Source: Thermoplasmata archaeon (GTDB lineage: Archaea; Thermoplasmatota; Thermoplasmata; Thermoplasmatales; Thermoplasmataceae). Taken from it: a stretch of 64,000 bases of DNA. Location of the stretch: NCBI GenBank assembly GCA_021818715.1, contig JAKATN010000004.1:1-64000 (forward strand), written 5' to 3'. Numbering within the stretch: the first letter of the stretch is position 1; every line of letters starts with the position of its first letter. The notes under the pieces are model-generated. The model worked only from the letters and a program-made list of their open reading frames with translations. It searched no databases and was not told where the DNA came from. Position numbers and translations under genes: made by a program. Positions 23,994 through 28,831 of this stretch are shown here, piece after piece.

Positions 23994-24488
23994 TTGATCA
24001 GAATATCCTATGTTGACGAGCGGATGGATGATCCGCGGAAGTCGACAATGAGGAAGCTTTCCAGGTTCGGGATGGCATACAGGATAGATGCAAGAATGAT
24101 ACGTGGAAAGGTTCTCTTATGGCCATTTTCAGATAAATACCTGACCGCCAGGGACAAAACTATTGCCGAAAAGTATGGTCTGTGCGTTATCGAGACCTCA
24201 TGGAAACGAATCGAGGACAGGTATTCCCAAAAATCCGGGAACCAGAGAAAATTGCCGCTAATTCTCCCCGTCAATCCCGTAAACTTTGGCAAGCCGGGGA
24301 TGCTATCTTCGGTAGAGGCGATCGCGTCTTCTCTCTATATCATGGGTGAAAATTCTCTTGCAGATTCCCTCCTTTCAAAGTTCCCATGGGCACACACTTT
24401 TCACGAGACGAACATGGAATTGCTGAATGCGTATTCCTCCTGCGGCAGCAACGAGGAGGTTATCTCGGTTCAGGCCGAATTCTTCTGA
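23994..24488 (+). CDS. tsr3: rRNA aminocarboxypropyltransferase Tsr3 (DUF367)
   Basis: This 164-residue member of the Tsr3 family transfers the aminocarboxypropyl group of S-adenosylmethionine to a hypermodified base in small-subunit rRNA. Conserved: DDPRKSTMRKLSRFGMAYRI, LLWPFSDKYLTARDKTIAEK, VIETSWKR, RKLPLILPVNPVNFGKPGML, SSVEAIASSLYIMG, and LSKFPWAHTFHETNMELL. The start is TTG 23994; an in-frame TGA lies just upstream, so no earlier start exists. The 3' end overlaps the convergent PP-loop gene by 19 bp. Confidence 0.93.
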   Translation: MIRISYVDERMDDPRKSTMRKLSRFGMAYRIDARMIRGKVLLWPFSDKYLTARDKTIAEKYGLCVIETSWKRIEDRYSQKSGNQRKLPLILPVNPVNFGKPGMLSSVEAIASSLYIMGENSLADSLLSKFPWAHTFHETNMELLNAYSSCGSNEEVISVQAEFF

Positions 24489-25882
24489 ACGTTGACCCAC
24501 TGGTCCCCCCTGAGTTCATATTTTCCCTTCGCGTATTCATTGACTATTGCAATGATCTTTTCCCTGACGGGTGGATCGATGCGCTCAAAAGGAACCTTTT
24601 CACCGGGAATTATGTGTACACCCTCAATGTGCCTGGCGCTTCCAAGAGGCCTGTCCTGCAGCACTGAGATCAGGTAGGCGACCTCGTCCCTGTCAAGCCT
24701 TATCCTGTCGGAAAGCAGTGATTTCGCGGCATTTTCTACAGCCTCATGGGTATAATTGATTTCTTCAGGATTTCCGCCTGCTGCAAGGATAAGTGAAATT
24801 ACGCCGATACACTTTGAGCATCTGCCGCATGGGATCACCTTTCCGTTTACAATCCTTGAGCTGTGGCACGACCTCTGCAGCCTGAAGAGGTCGGGATATC
24901 TCCTGACCAGTATTTCCTCGACCTTTGATGCGCTGATCGGGTATACCCCGGACCTCAGCCTGATGCCTATGCCCTTCTGCCCAAGGTACGCGTTGAACTC
25001 CCTCTCGAAGTCGGCAGTCTGGTCGTATATGCCGTAATAGTGCCTGATCCCCCTGTAAGGTACCATTTCCCGGGTATCGTCAAACTCATTCCCCATGTAA
25101 ACTGCCCCGATTTTCCTCTCGATCATCAGGGGAAGCAGGGCCATCAGGTATACCGGGAATATGAAGAGCTGGACCGGGTATGTATCAGCTACCCCAGCCA
25201 CCGCTGCCTGGTCAAGCACCTTCATCCTGCGGAGAACCCACCTGTAGAACCTGTCGGTGTTTGTCCACACCTTGAACGCGTGGCCGTTTCCATCCAGGTG
25301 CCTGTAGCTCGGTAGGGCAGGGAACCAGTGCGATCCTGATTCGTTGTAGAAGAAAGCGTCCGGGTCCTCTCCTGCTTCCGTGAGCATGCCGAGGGTGGTC
25401 AGGCTCTCCTTGCCGCCGGAAAGCAGCACACCGGTCCTTTTCCCTGAATATTTCCTTGGGAAACGTGCTTCCCCCTCGGCTTCAAGGATGTTGCTTCCAA
25501 TGGCGTTCTGCAGGGTGATCTCGCCTTCCTCCGGCAGGAATTCCCTCCTGTAGAATTCATACCGCCTCCTGCAGATCTTGTTTACGAACACCTCCGTATT
25601 GTTGATCGCGAGCATCTTCGTGAGAAACTGCAGGTCTGCCTTCTCCATTGGGAATTCTCCCCTGATACGCCTTGTGAAAAGGCCGAAATTGACCATGGGA
25701 AAGAGCGAGATTAGACCGGCAATGTTCCTGTCCATCTCTGGAACGTCATGACTGTAGGAAAATATGATCCTGAACTTTTCCCCGTCAAGATCCACGGTGG
25801 AAACAATCCTTTTCCCGGTCACTTCCTCAGGGTGAATACTTGCTGTGTCGAAGCAGGCAATTCGCGAAAGGTAATCAGACAT
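24470..25882 (-). CDS. PP-loop ATP pyrophosphatase-like enzyme with Cys cluster
   Basis: This 470-residue protein carries a PP-loop GVLLSGGKESLTTLGML (residues ~150-166), as in N-type ATP pyrophosphatases that adenylate substrates. A QueC-like cysteine set follows in CHSSRIVNGKVIPCGRCSKC (near residue 345), probably binding zinc. It has an N-terminal ~145-residue domain of unknown type, longer than QueC. Third gene of the PLP/DUF1611/PP-loop cluster; ATG 25882 overlaps the DUF1611 stop by 8 bp (ATGTCTGA). A MurL-like adenylating epimerase is one possible relative, but I cannot confirm it. Substrate unknown. Confidence 0.75.
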   Translation of the reverse strand: MSDYLSRIACFDTASIHPEEVTGKRIVSTVDLDGEKFRIIFSYSHDVPEMDRNIAGLISLFPMVNFGLFTRRIRGEFPMEKADLQFLTKMLAINNTEVFVNKICRRRYEFYRREFLPEEGEITLQNAIGSNILEAEGEARFPRKYSGKRTGVLLSGGKESLTTLGMLTEAGEDPDAFFYNESGSHWFPALPSYRHLDGNGHAFKVWTNTDRFYRWVLRRMKVLDQAAVAGVADTYPVQLFIFPVYLMALLPLMIERKIGAVYMGNEFDDTREMVPYRGIRHYYGIYDQTADFEREFNAYLGQKGIGIRLRSGVYPISASKVEEILVRRYPDLFRLQRSCHSSRIVNGKVIPCGRCSKCIGVISLILAAGGNPEEINYTHEAVENAAKSLLSDRIRLDRDEVAYLISVLQDRPLGSARHIEGVHIIPGEKVPFERIDPPVREKIIAIVNEYAKGKYELRGDQWVNVQKNSA

Positions 25883-26921
25883 TGATTTCAGGCGAGATTG
25901 TCTCTATATATTTTGTTATCTCTCTCAGATCGGAAAGGGGATCGAACACAGGTATCCCAATCCTCTTTGCCATGGCCGTTATCTCCTGTTCCTTCCTCTC
26001 CTGCGGAATGTTTTCAAGATTCAGTGACACTGCAATAACCGGTTTTCCGGAGACAAGCTGAAGGATCTTGATGTACTTTTCAATGCTCTCAATCTTGAAG
26101 TCAGGAAAACCGTCATAGTATAACCTGGATGGTGAATGCTGCAGGATAATGGCATCCGGCCTGCAGGCAGCTATTATCTCGAAGCTGCCGGGATACGCCG
26201 GATGAAGGATCGATCCCTGGCCTTCAAGGAAAATGAAGTCCGGGTGTAGGTCTTTCCAAGCCCTGTAAACCGTATCTTCCAGATTTCCTGAGATGAAATC
26301 ATTGATCATGGCATCTATCACAACAGTATAGGGGAAACCCTGCATCCAGGCAGTCTGTCCGGTTCCGATCATAACACTTGTCCTGTTGTTCTCCTGCATT
26401 GATCTGTTCAGGTACACTGCAGTTGTACGTTTTCCTACGGCGCTGTCAGTGCCCAGCACTGCAATCTTGAATGACCTGACTTCCCTGATCTTCCCGGTGT
26501 AAGGGATCTTCATGTCCCTGAACATTTTCCTGACATCGGTTATGGTGCAGCCGTACTTCTTCGCCAGCGCTGAAAATTCCGAATCGTCTGAGAGAAATTC
26601 ATGAAGCCCGCATACGACGTTCAGGCCACGTTCGAGCCCTTCCCTGATTGCCGGCCTGTATTCCTTGGGCAGAAAACCGCCGTCGCTGGCAATTCCAACC
26701 ACCAGGGTAGAGGGGTGATAGACCATCGCGTCCTGCAGAGAAGCTACTATTGGTATCCCTTTCCGCCTGCCTTCAAGCACTTCGCCCGCATCCATTCCGG
26801 CTTTGGTAGAATCTATCACTGCCACGGGCCTGAATCTTGTGCCGTATCTGATTAGCCCGTTCGCGGTCTTCCCGTAAGTTGTGCCGAAAACTCCCTCGCT
26901 CAGGATTACTGCGTTGTCCAC
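25875..26921 (-). CDS. DUF1611 (DgcN-like) P-loop protein
   Basis: This ~348-residue protein matches the DUF1611/COG3367 family: an N-terminal Rossmann-like part (KTANGLIRYGTRFRPVAVID), then a P-loop AVLGTDSAVGKRTTAVYLNR (residues ~155-174), TGQTAWMQGF and FLEGQGSILHPAYPG. A bacterial member, DgcN, is reported as a D-glutamate N-acetyltransferase; whether this one is, is inference. GTG 26921 is chosen (AGAGGAA upstream, 16-bp overlap with the PLP gene); the frame also allows GTG 26954. Middle gene of the cluster. Confidence 0.82.
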   Translation of the reverse strand: MDNAVILSEGVFGTTYGKTANGLIRYGTRFRPVAVIDSTKAGMDAGEVLEGRRKGIPIVASLQDAMVYHPSTLVVGIASDGGFLPKEYRPAIREGLERGLNVVCGLHEFLSDDSEFSALAKKYGCTITDVRKMFRDMKIPYTGKIREVRSFKIAVLGTDSAVGKRTTAVYLNRSMQENNRTSVMIGTGQTAWMQGFPYTVVIDAMINDFISGNLEDTVYRAWKDLHPDFIFLEGQGSILHPAYPGSFEIIAACRPDAIILQHSPSRLYYDGFPDFKIESIEKYIKILQLVSGKPVIAVSLNLENIPQERKEQEITAMAKRIGIPVFDPLSDLREITKYIETISPEINV

Positions 26922-27874
26922 GGCTTTCCTCTTCCTGTAAGAACAACCACGCACTCTGGATAATCCACGAATTTCCGCATCACCCTGACAGCAACGGAAA
27001 GTGCAGAGGAAGAGGCGGGCAGTGCCTGCACCTTTTCCAGCCTTTCAATGAAGGATGAGGTGCGGATCATCTCCTCGTCGGAAACGTATCCGGCGAATCC
27101 CCGGCTCTCGTAAATGGCATTGAGCGCCTTCTGTCCGTCGATTGAATGATACGATACCAGCGGCTCGTTCGCCCTGCTTTCCTTTAGGCGCAGCGGATCA
27201 AGGTCAACTATCTTCCTGCTCTTCATCTTCCACGAGTGCACAATCGCGTTCCCGCCGTCGGTAGAGGAGGCGATCAGTCTTGGAATATGATCGATCTGCC
27301 CCATCCTGTAGGCTTTCTTGAATCCGGAATATATGCCGGTCATCGTGGTTCCATTGCCCACGGGGACGGCTACGAAGTTGGGTGCATGCCCCAGCTGGGA
27401 AATGATTTCAAACGCTATGTTCTCGTACCCAAGGAAGTCGATGAATGAGTTCTGCGAACCTGGGTTGCAGTCGTACCAGCAGTTATCGTTGCCAAGGTCC
27501 CGCATCATGTCTACAAGATTTTCATACTTCCCGTCCTCACGCAGGAGAGTTCCGCCATACTGTTCAATCTCCGCGTTTCTCTCCCCCGAATATCCACTCG
27601 GTACCGCCACTACGCTCCCAAGCCCTTGCACCCTGGCATAATACGAGACTGAAGCTCCATAGTTGCCGCAGGAAGCCAGCGACAGGGTGTCATATCCCAG
27701 CGCTTTAGCCCTTCTTGCATGCAACCTTGAGATCCTGTCTTTCTGAGTCCCGGTTATGCTCGCCCCTTCAAACTTGATGTACAATTTCTTGAGTTTGAGG
27801 GATTTTTCAATATTGCTGGCCCTAAAAAAAGGAGTCGTATCCGGAGGTTCTTCCTCCTCACTCACTATCTCCAT
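26906..27874 (-). CDS. PLP-dependent enzyme, threonine synthase/dehydratase fold
   Basis: This 322-residue fold-type II PLP protein has the Schiff-base lysine in GTQKDRISRLHARRAKALG (residues ~42-60), the substrate loop SLASCGNYGASVSYYA, and the phosphate-binding loop VPVGNGTTMTGIY. It is shorter than threonine synthase (~350-400) and lacks the N-terminal zinc-like segment, so threonine synthase itself is not assured; a dehydratase, lyase or racemase is possible. First gene of the cluster, under a TATA box flanked by a perfect dyad. Leader of ~26 nt with AGGT before ATG 27874. Confidence 0.8.
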   Translation of the reverse strand: MEIVSEEEEPPDTTPFFRASNIEKSLKLKKLYIKFEGASITGTQKDRISRLHARRAKALGYDTLSLASCGNYGASVSYYARVQGLGSVVAVPSGYSGERNAEIEQYGGTLLREDGKYENLVDMMRDLGNDNCWYDCNPGSQNSFIDFLGYENIAFEIISQLGHAPNFVAVPVGNGTTMTGIYSGFKKAYRMGQIDHIPRLIASSTDGGNAIVHSWKMKSRKIVDLDPLRLKESRANEPLVSYHSIDGQKALNAIYESRGFAGYVSDEEMIRTSSFIERLEKVQALPASSSALSVAVRVMRKFVDYPECVVVLTGRGKPWTTQ

Positions 27875-27895
27875 TACCTTTTGTTCCCCTCAGGA

Positions 27896-27921
27896 GAAAC
27901 CTGTTAAAAATGTCAGGTTTC
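27896..27921. promoter_or_regulatory. Operator-like dyad next to the TATA box of the PLP/DUF1611/PP-loop cluster
   Basis: GAAACCTG (27896-27903) and its exact inverse CAGGTTTC (27914-27921) flank a 10-bp AT-rich spacer. The right arm abuts the TATA box and the left arm covers the expected transcription start (~27900). A protein bound here would block initiation. No such dyad is visible elsewhere in the window by eye. Confidence 0.55.
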
Positions 27922-27934
27922 TATTATATATAAA
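27922..27934 (-). promoter_or_regulatory. TATA box of the PLP/DUF1611/PP-loop cluster
   Basis: Strong TTTATATATAAT on the minus strand, one of the best TATA boxes in the window, about 50 bp upstream of ATG 27874, giving a leadered mRNA. Confidence 0.65.
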
Positions 27935-28039
27935 TGTTGTGTCTAATATCTTACTACAAATGTAAAGGGGACCCTGAATTATCCGGCATCCGACAAAATT
28001 TTAACATAAACATAATTATAATATTATTTATTGTTATGA

Positions 28040-28831
28040 TTAAATTTCAATCAGCTCCAGGCCCATATCGGCTGCAACTGCCCTGGCAGTGTTTCTCATC
28101 TCAGAGTTGCATCCCTTGAAGTCCATGATGAGCCCTCTGCAGTTTGGAGTCATTTCCACCGCCTGCCTGATTGTCTGATCATTTACGTGATCCCTCTGGT
28201 ACTTCGGGACTATGTGGCCGATGTTCGCTTTCTCAGACATTACATATTGCGTGAATTTTGGCGCATAATGGCCTCCGCCGATGCCTACGAAGTTCGGGTA
28301 TGTGTTTCCCTTTGCTTCGACCAGCGAGGACAGGACGCAGTCGAGGATGGCCTCATTATTCCACTCCTCCTCGGTTGTCCCTATCTCAAGATAGAATGCC
28401 GGTGTCTGGGTGAATGGTCCATGGTGGGTGGCTTCAAACGTCACCTCCATCTCCTTTACCGTATTCCTGGCCTTGAGATTCCTTAATGTATCGGTCATCC
28501 TGTCCGGGAATGCACGTGAAAGCCTGCCTTCAAGGCCTCCAAGTAACGCTTCAGAGAAATTTCCGACGGGATGCACTGTCATGGACCTGATTTTTGCGCT
28601 GGAGCTGTGTTTTGAAAGGAAGACTATTCCTTCCGGTGGCCCCGAAGTCTTCGCACTGCGGATGATCTCCTCTGTGTCTGAATACAGGTGTGAAGCGTCG
28701 ATTATCTTGAGCGTCAGGTTGGCCTTCCTGAATGTTGAGATGTCGATTCTGTCCAGCCCGTAATTCTCAACAAGATATTCCCCCATTCTCCTGCTTGCAG
28801 GATCTGAAACGGATGAAACTGCTATGATCAT
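28040..28831 (-). CDS. dtdA: D-aminoacyl-tRNA deacylase, archaeal type (DtdA)
   Basis: This 263-residue enzyme hydrolyses D-aminoacyl-tRNAs, recycling tRNA mischarged with D-amino acids. Family motifs: GIVFLSKHSSSAKIRSMTVH, PVGNFSEALLGG, EVTFEATHHGPFTQTPAFYL, EIGTTEEEWNN, and VGIGGGHYAPKFTQYV with the metal-binding histidines. It is a zinc enzyme shared by archaea and plants. ATG 28831 is 5 bp after the upstream helical gene's stop, so they form an operon. The PLP/DUF1611 cluster follows on the same strand with its own promoter. Confidence 0.95.
   Translation of the reverse strand: MIIAVSSVSDPASRRMGEYLVENYGLDRIDISTFRKANLTLKIIDASHLYSDTEEIIRSAKTSGPPEGIVFLSKHSSSAKIRSMTVHPVGNFSEALLGGLEGRLSRAFPDRMTDTLRNLKARNTVKEMEVTFEATHHGPFTQTPAFYLEIGTTEEEWNNEAILDCVLSSLVEAKGNTYPNFVGIGGGHYAPKFTQYVMSEKANIGHIVPKYQRDHVNDQTIRQAVEMTPNCRGLIMDFKGCNSEMRNTARAVAADMGLELIEI

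Follow-up and report, generated by a model that had tools for sequence, protein, structure and literature searches.

The window analyzed here comprises 64,000 nucleotides of a Thermoplasmata archaeon (family Thermoplasmataceae; positions 1 to 64,000 of contig JAKATN010000004.1, assembly GCA_021818715.1). On its reverse strand, three consecutive genes encode a pyridoxal phosphate (PLP)-dependent fold-type II enzyme, a DUF1611 protein and a PP-loop protein (Table 1). The archaeon is acid-loving and wall-less. An earlier note on this DNA, made from its letters, had described this gene order on one strand with overlaps of 16 base pairs (bp) (PLP/DUF1611, 26906-26921) and 8 bp (DUF1611/PP-loop, 25875-25882) and with dtdA, the gene for D-aminoacyl-tRNA deacylase, upstream. 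The coordinates of the open reading frames bore out all of these features, and a single promoter precedes the three genes. The assigned protein families were also correct, as judged by PF00291 for the PLP protein, PF17396 and PF07755 for the DUF1611 protein, and the fold obtained with AlphaFold and Foldseek for the PP-loop protein. For the DUF1611 gene, a longer frame starting with GTG at position 26954 is open as well.

Table 1 Positions of the three operon genes, the upstream gene and the regulatory features in the window
Feature	Position	Strand	Basis or remark
PLP fold-type II enzyme gene, operon gene 1	26906..27874	-	open reading frame, 322 amino acids, PF00291
DUF1611 gene, operon gene 2	25875..26921	-	open reading frame, GTG start at 26921, 348 amino acids
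PP-loop gene, operon gene 3	24470..25882	-	open reading frame, 470 amino acids
dtdA (D-aminoacyl-tRNA deacylase)	28040..28831	-	PF04414, 208 bits; upstream neighbor, outside the conserved unit
TATA-like promoter element TTTATATATAATAG	27921..27934	-	sequence position
Perfect 9-bp inverted repeat AGAAACCTG-N10-CAGGTTTCT, just downstream of the TATA box	27895..27922	-	arms 100% complementary
Stem-loop in the leader, immediately before the PLP start codon	27883..27900	-	folds; stems of relatives paired despite sequence change

Conservation and genomic context of the operon

The three genes behave as one unit in their inheritance, order and loss. Of 200 Thermoplasmata genomes searched, 34 contained the PP-loop gene, and all of these (34/34) also had a DUF1611 gene. 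Within the order, all genomes sampled from the window's family and from two other families carried the PP-loop gene, and it was missing from all 18 sampled from family f2. In family f3, the cluster is reduced to the DUF1611 and PP-loop genes. A profile scan of 84,980 species genomes yielded 126 relatives, 80 of which were kept. Gene calling on these relatives and on further loci revealed the order PLP-DUF1611-PP-loop in the Thermoplasmata, the Bathyarchaeota (Bathyarchaeia), the Korarchaeia (Methanodesulfokora) and the Thermococcales. All three genes were complete and in identical order in 66 fetched loci, where they mostly overlapped or were separated by gaps of <100 bp. A maximum-likelihood tree of 59 DUF1611 proteins placed all proteins with a PP-loop neighbor (41 of 41) in a single clade with a support of 100/99. 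The pairwise distances of the operon proteins were correlated (r 0.82-0.87), although shared ancestry alone also raises such coefficients. In one Thermococcales genome (G283, locus L216, 6186-8933), the PLP, DUF1611 and PP-loop genes and an adjacent gene for a GNAT acetyltransferase are all broken together. Because the gene order is kept in four archaeal lineages, the DUF1611 proteins form one clade, and the genes decay jointly, we regard the three genes as one functional unit. This agrees with the suggestion of the earlier note that they may act in one pathway or complex; neither a lack of conserved order in related genomes nor clear orthology of the proteins to enzymes of unrelated known pathways was found. 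Two further suggestions of that note were not supported. The coding overlaps do not demonstrate a fixed stoichiometry, since their exact extent varies among the loci (PLP/DUF1611 from about +38 to -181 bp), and a link to the wall-less lifestyle finds no support, as the operon also occurs in Thermococcales and Korarchaeia.

The surroundings of the operon differ among the lineages. A GNAT acetyltransferase is usually encoded by the fourth gene in the Thermococcales and Korarchaeia, whereas in a group of Bathyarchaeota and deep Thermoplasmata a GNAT gene is instead convergent with the PP-loop gene. GNAT genes thus occur beside the operon in two distinct arrangements. Other neighbors in the Thermococcales (agmatinase, the MetG C-terminal domain, methylthioribose-1-phosphate isomerase and alcohol dehydrogenase) are unrelated and variable and were not considered part of the unit. 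In locus L218 (G265), the PP-loop gene is reduced to a short remnant and the rest of the operon is gone. About 4.2 kb of other genes separate the DUF1611 gene from the PP-loop gene in locus L091, while the two are adjacent elsewhere.

dtdA lies directly upstream of the operon in 45 complete loci, all from Thermoplasmatales, and elsewhere in 2 loci. It was not seen in 13 complete loci with enough room to show it, and the loci lacking it include those of Thermococcales, Korarchaeia, Bathyarchaeota and deep Thermoplasmata. On this distribution, we rejected dtdA as a member of the operon, and the connection between dtdA and the three genes that had been drawn earlier is not supported. The adjacency is local synteny, as it is for tsr3, which is encoded on the forward strand of the window, ends at position 24488 and is convergent with the PP-loop gene; by itself, the adjacency is no evidence on function. 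Since a TATA-like box and an inverted repeat are located in the 165 bases between dtdA and the PLP gene, a promoter shared by dtdA and the three genes is also unlikely. An AT-rich imperfect inverted repeat with arms of 23 nucleotides (27996-28047) was observed at the dtdA stop codon and possibly marks the end of dtdA transcription.

The earlier note had described one strong regulated promoter. The best-supported part of this description is the leader stem-loop, which recurs in the Thermoplasmatales loci L061-L116 and in the window with different arms, for example TCAGGC/GCCTGA, ACCAGA/TCTGGT, CCAGGTT/AACCTGG, TACCAGTT/GACTGGTA and GACCT/AGGTC. Across 44 leaders, the mean best-stem score was 12.1 compared with 9.5 ± 0.36 for shuffled sequences, and a score of 13 was reached by 48% of the leaders compared with 12% after shuffling. 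The control leaders of dtdA, tsr3 and valS were at background, and those of the neighbor families c5 and c6 were slightly raised. As MAFFT left the arms unaligned, covariation was assessed on single stems and by shuffling, not by counting pairs. By inspection, the stem-loop ends at the ribosome-binding region, which suggests a role in translational control or as an operator. The 9-bp inverted repeat, a possible operator, is conserved imperfectly in the two closest relatives.

The three proteins and their relatives

No Pfam family, including the QueC family PF06508, scored over its threshold for the PP-loop protein or its homologues, and the sequence profile of the protein had no significant match in the PDB. 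The AlphaFold model (mean predicted local distance difference test score, pLDDT, 93.6) was most similar to QatC (9y02_B, E = 4.3e-5), Cap9 (9nto) and QueC (3bl5) among the solved structures compared by Foldseek. An N-terminal extension (residues ~1-147) is followed by a QueC-like core (~148-378) and a C-terminal extension. QatC has the same plan, with its QueC core at residues 145-377, extensions on both sides and four zinc cysteines (PMC13279940). In the window protein, the core carries the PP-loop motif SGGKES and the zinc-type cysteines C339, C352, C355 and C358. Among 60 homologues, SGGKE was kept in nearly all, these four cysteines were (nearly) invariant, and Glu occupied the position of Asp in the SGGxDS motif of the QueC superfamily in 60/60. 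The zinc-type spacing also differs, being C(x)12CxxCxxC in the window protein and C(x)8CxxCxxC in the QueC superfamily; the spacing in QatC varies too. The substrate motifs of QueC are YxQxHxxE, VPxRN and YPDC (PMC13329287). These are absent from the operon proteins, which have N-E-S-G-x-H-W, YP-x-[QR] and G-x-E-x-D-D in their place and share a motif set of their own that further includes W-x-N-x-D-R-x-Y, D-Q and Q-R-S-C-H. The available portion of a 2026 survey of the QueC family does not describe this protein family. The predicted fold and the conserved ATP- and zinc-site residues show the PP-loop protein to be a new branch of the QueC superfamily.

Among enzymes of known reaction, MurL is nearest by sequence, which points to distant kinship and not to membership. 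The MurL profile NF041275 matched 11 of the 60 homologues with a best E-value of 6e-6, and the best score of 25 bits was far under the cut-off of 700. The lengths of the proteins are similar (470 amino acids compared with 447 for MurL), but the operon protein is encoded beside DUF1611 and PLP genes. When plasmids were searched by tblastn for proteins resembling MurL, with the PP-loop protein of the Korarchaeia as query, no match was obtained, and a search for the MurL family in six genomes and control genomes returned no usable MurL sequence. The comparison with MurL and QueC proposed in the earlier note thus led to a QueC-superfamily fold and a weak sequence match to MurL. We know of no peptidoglycan synthesis in these archaea. 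MurL is paired with MurD2 in a peptidoglycan pathway; no other gene is interposed in the three-gene unit, and no Mur gene was seen there, although a genome-wide search for Mur genes was not made.

The DUF1611 protein scored over the cut-offs of both PF07755 (194 bits) and PF17396 (102 bits). It consists of an N-terminal Rossmann-like domain and a P-loop domain, whose GTDSxxGKRTT motif is conserved in the alignment. Its solved relatives are 2g0t, 2obn and 7xrj, the last with E = 1.2e-49 when the family profile was used. The DgcN-DgcA pathway, which combines a DUF1611 N-acetyltransferase with a racemase of the enolase superfamily, resembles the operon in that the DUF1611 protein is homologous to DgcN and is paired with a candidate amino-acid epimerase. 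However, the operon DUF1611 proteins form their own clade, the window protein scores far under the cut-off of the DgcN profile NF041892 (159 compared with 480 bits), and its partners are the PP-loop and PLP proteins. The window genome, which is 91% complete, contained no DgcA-like protein at E ≤ 1e-20. Within the 200-genome set, 64 of the 73 Thermoplasmata genomes with DUF1611 but without the PP-loop gene possessed an epimerase of the DgcA or L-Ala-D/L-Glu type (E ≤ 1e-50), which was adjacent in 17 of them. In contrast, among the genomes with the PP-loop gene, the window genome left out, such an epimerase was found in only 8 of 33 and was adjacent in none; these counts are uncorrected for kinship. 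In family f9 (loci L181, 3537-8727, L184 and L185), an epimerase of the L-Ala-D/L-Glu type and a GHMP kinase are encoded beside DUF1611, and genes for a Mur-ligase domain protein and an endonuclease III-like protein are found just upstream of this cluster in L181. In the deep Thermoplasmata (L119, 8437-11505, as well as L121, L127, L129, L130 and L132), genes for a GNAT, an M14-like protein and a DgcA-like epimerase are convergent with the PP-loop gene. The M14-like protein was labeled only by eye from its HSDE...HH...E pattern; it has no Pfam family, its profile has no PDB relative, and its model has a pLDDT of 43.

The PLP protein matched PF00291 (160 bits) and NF004996 (PRK06381; 396 bits, cut-off 266), a family named threonine synthase by NCBI. 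Like ThrC, it is a fold-type II PLP enzyme, and its closest solved relatives are threonine synthases. However, a separate threonine synthase is encoded in the window genome (G000:C31; NF005035, 414 bits, cut-off 301), and we therefore consider the operon protein by its sequence to be a paralogue of ThrC that is not the threonine synthase of the cell. The genome also encodes a threonine deaminase, two cysteine-synthase-like proteins and TrpB2. According to the profile alignment, the arginine in the NPYRxEGQ stretch of threonine synthases, which we take to bind the substrate phosphate, is replaced by Asp in the window and by Gln in family f14. The fixed association with DUF1611 and PP-loop genes also sets the protein apart from ThrC.

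Proposed pathway and alternative functions

We tentatively propose that the operon encodes one uncharacterised archaeal pathway, whose substrate may be an amino acid or short peptide that is N-acylated and probably acidic, and which may include an inversion by the PP-loop enzyme. The chemistry of each step is proposed from kinship with characterised enzymes. The PLP enzyme would make or break an amino acid by a fold-type II reaction other than threonine synthesis. The DUF1611 protein, like DgcN, would acylate the amino nitrogen. The PP-loop enzyme would then adenylate the free carboxylate, converting ATP to AMP and pyrophosphate; inversion at the activated carbon and hydrolysis of the adenylate would follow, as has been suggested for MurL. 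MurL consumes ATP, yields AMP and acts on N-acylated glutamate, while free glutamate is not racemised; the adenylation of the alpha-carboxylate is a hypothesis of its authors (PMC8788868). The PP-loop enzyme would in this way take the place of the DgcA-type epimerase found with DUF1611 in related archaea. The idea of a D-amino acid or N-acylated amino acid, already raised in the earlier note, is favored by the homology to DgcN, the weak match to MurL, the DgcA-type epimerases found with other DUF1611 genes and the GNAT genes, whereas the D-stereochemistry of the product we only infer. Several observations weigh against the proposed pathway. The match to MurL covers only ~100 residues, and relatives of QueC adenylate a carboxylate but add an amine without epimerisation. 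The acetyltransferase activity of DgcN is taken second-hand from a citing paper (PMC12363236), and the window genome has the operon without a GNAT gene. The genomic contrast in epimerase content was not corrected for kinship. Moreover, because the six deep loci carry both, the PP-loop gene and an epimerase can coexist, so that any replacement is not strict. Inversion as in MurL is a tentative assignment for the PP-loop step, and ligation as in QueC is only slightly less likely. A bolder version is rather unlikely: an ancient archaeal pathway in which a new family with the QueC fold catalyses ATP-driven one-way epimerisation of N-acyl-amino acids, so that archaea lacking peptidoglycan would obtain a D-amino-acid derivative through adenylation of its carboxylate, in non-homologous replacement of the DgcA-type epimerase beside DUF1611.

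If the PP-loop enzyme were a ligase, it would couple the adenylated carboxylate to an amine, as QueC and Cap9 do, and the operon would yield an unusual dipeptide, amide or N-acylated amino acid that might serve as a solute, as a signal or as part of a cofactor. DUF1611, and GNAT where present, would then carry out N-modifications, and the PLP enzyme would supply the amino acid. The best fold matches, the invariance of the zinc cysteines and the PP-loop, and the Mur-ligase and GHMP-kinase genes near DUF1611 and epimerase genes in other Thermoplasmata are consistent with such a role, as are the acceptors reported in PMC13329287 and PMC13279940, namely ammonia for QueC and a protein amine for Cap9. 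Against this role, the epimerase MurL is nearer than QueC by sequence, and DUF1611 is mostly partnered by epimerases in the rest of the class. An unlikely function is catabolic salvage, in which peptide-eating archaea would take up amino acids that are isomerised or in the D-form, as well as fragments of peptides, and convert them to usable L-amino acids, with dtdA as a parallel safeguard of translation. A reference title in PMC12363236 also names D-glutamate catabolism by DgcN/DgcA in halophilic archaea, and the scattered presence and decay of the operon in Thermococcales would suit a dispensable function, as the adjacency of dtdA in Thermoplasmatales would suit the safeguard. However, the presence of the PP-loop gene throughout the sampled genomes of the window's family is more like a required function, MurL works in the direction from L to D, and dtdA is unlinked outside the Thermoplasmatales.

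The top fold match to QatC and the common extension-core-extension plan could also indicate that the target of the PP-loop enzyme is a protein, as it is for QatC and Cap9 in phage defense, and that the operon serves protein tagging or defense. PADLOC found no match for any operon protein, on which grounds we rejected a defense system. The operon contains neither QatB-like nor 7-deazaguanine genes and in this differs from qatABCD; the QueC substrate motifs are missing, and the inheritance is vertical and syntenic, unlike that of defense islands. Protein tagging is accordingly very unlikely. The least credible explanation is ordinary metabolism, with a threonine synthase, as the NCBIfam name of the PLP family has it, beside two neighbors without a common function. 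It is hard to reconcile with the separate threonine synthase over its own cut-off and the replaced arginine, and the conserved order, together with the joint decay, already contradicts it.

Significance for archaeal metabolism

All three proteins belong to known superfamilies; in the family libraries used, neither their combination nor the associated DUF1611 clade nor the PP-loop subfamily has an assignment. As the unit is kept across deep archaeal lineages, it almost certainly serves to produce or eliminate a particular metabolite that the current maps of archaeal metabolism lack, most likely a modified and perhaps D-configured amino acid. DUF1611 gains a second, distinct partnership, and the QueC/MurL superfamily an uncharted branch. 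The presence of the operon in Thermococcales and in cultured Thermoplasmatales makes these functions testable. If the PP-loop enzyme is an epimerase, a second amino-acid epimerase driven by ATP would be known, and archaea would have a source of D-amino acids.

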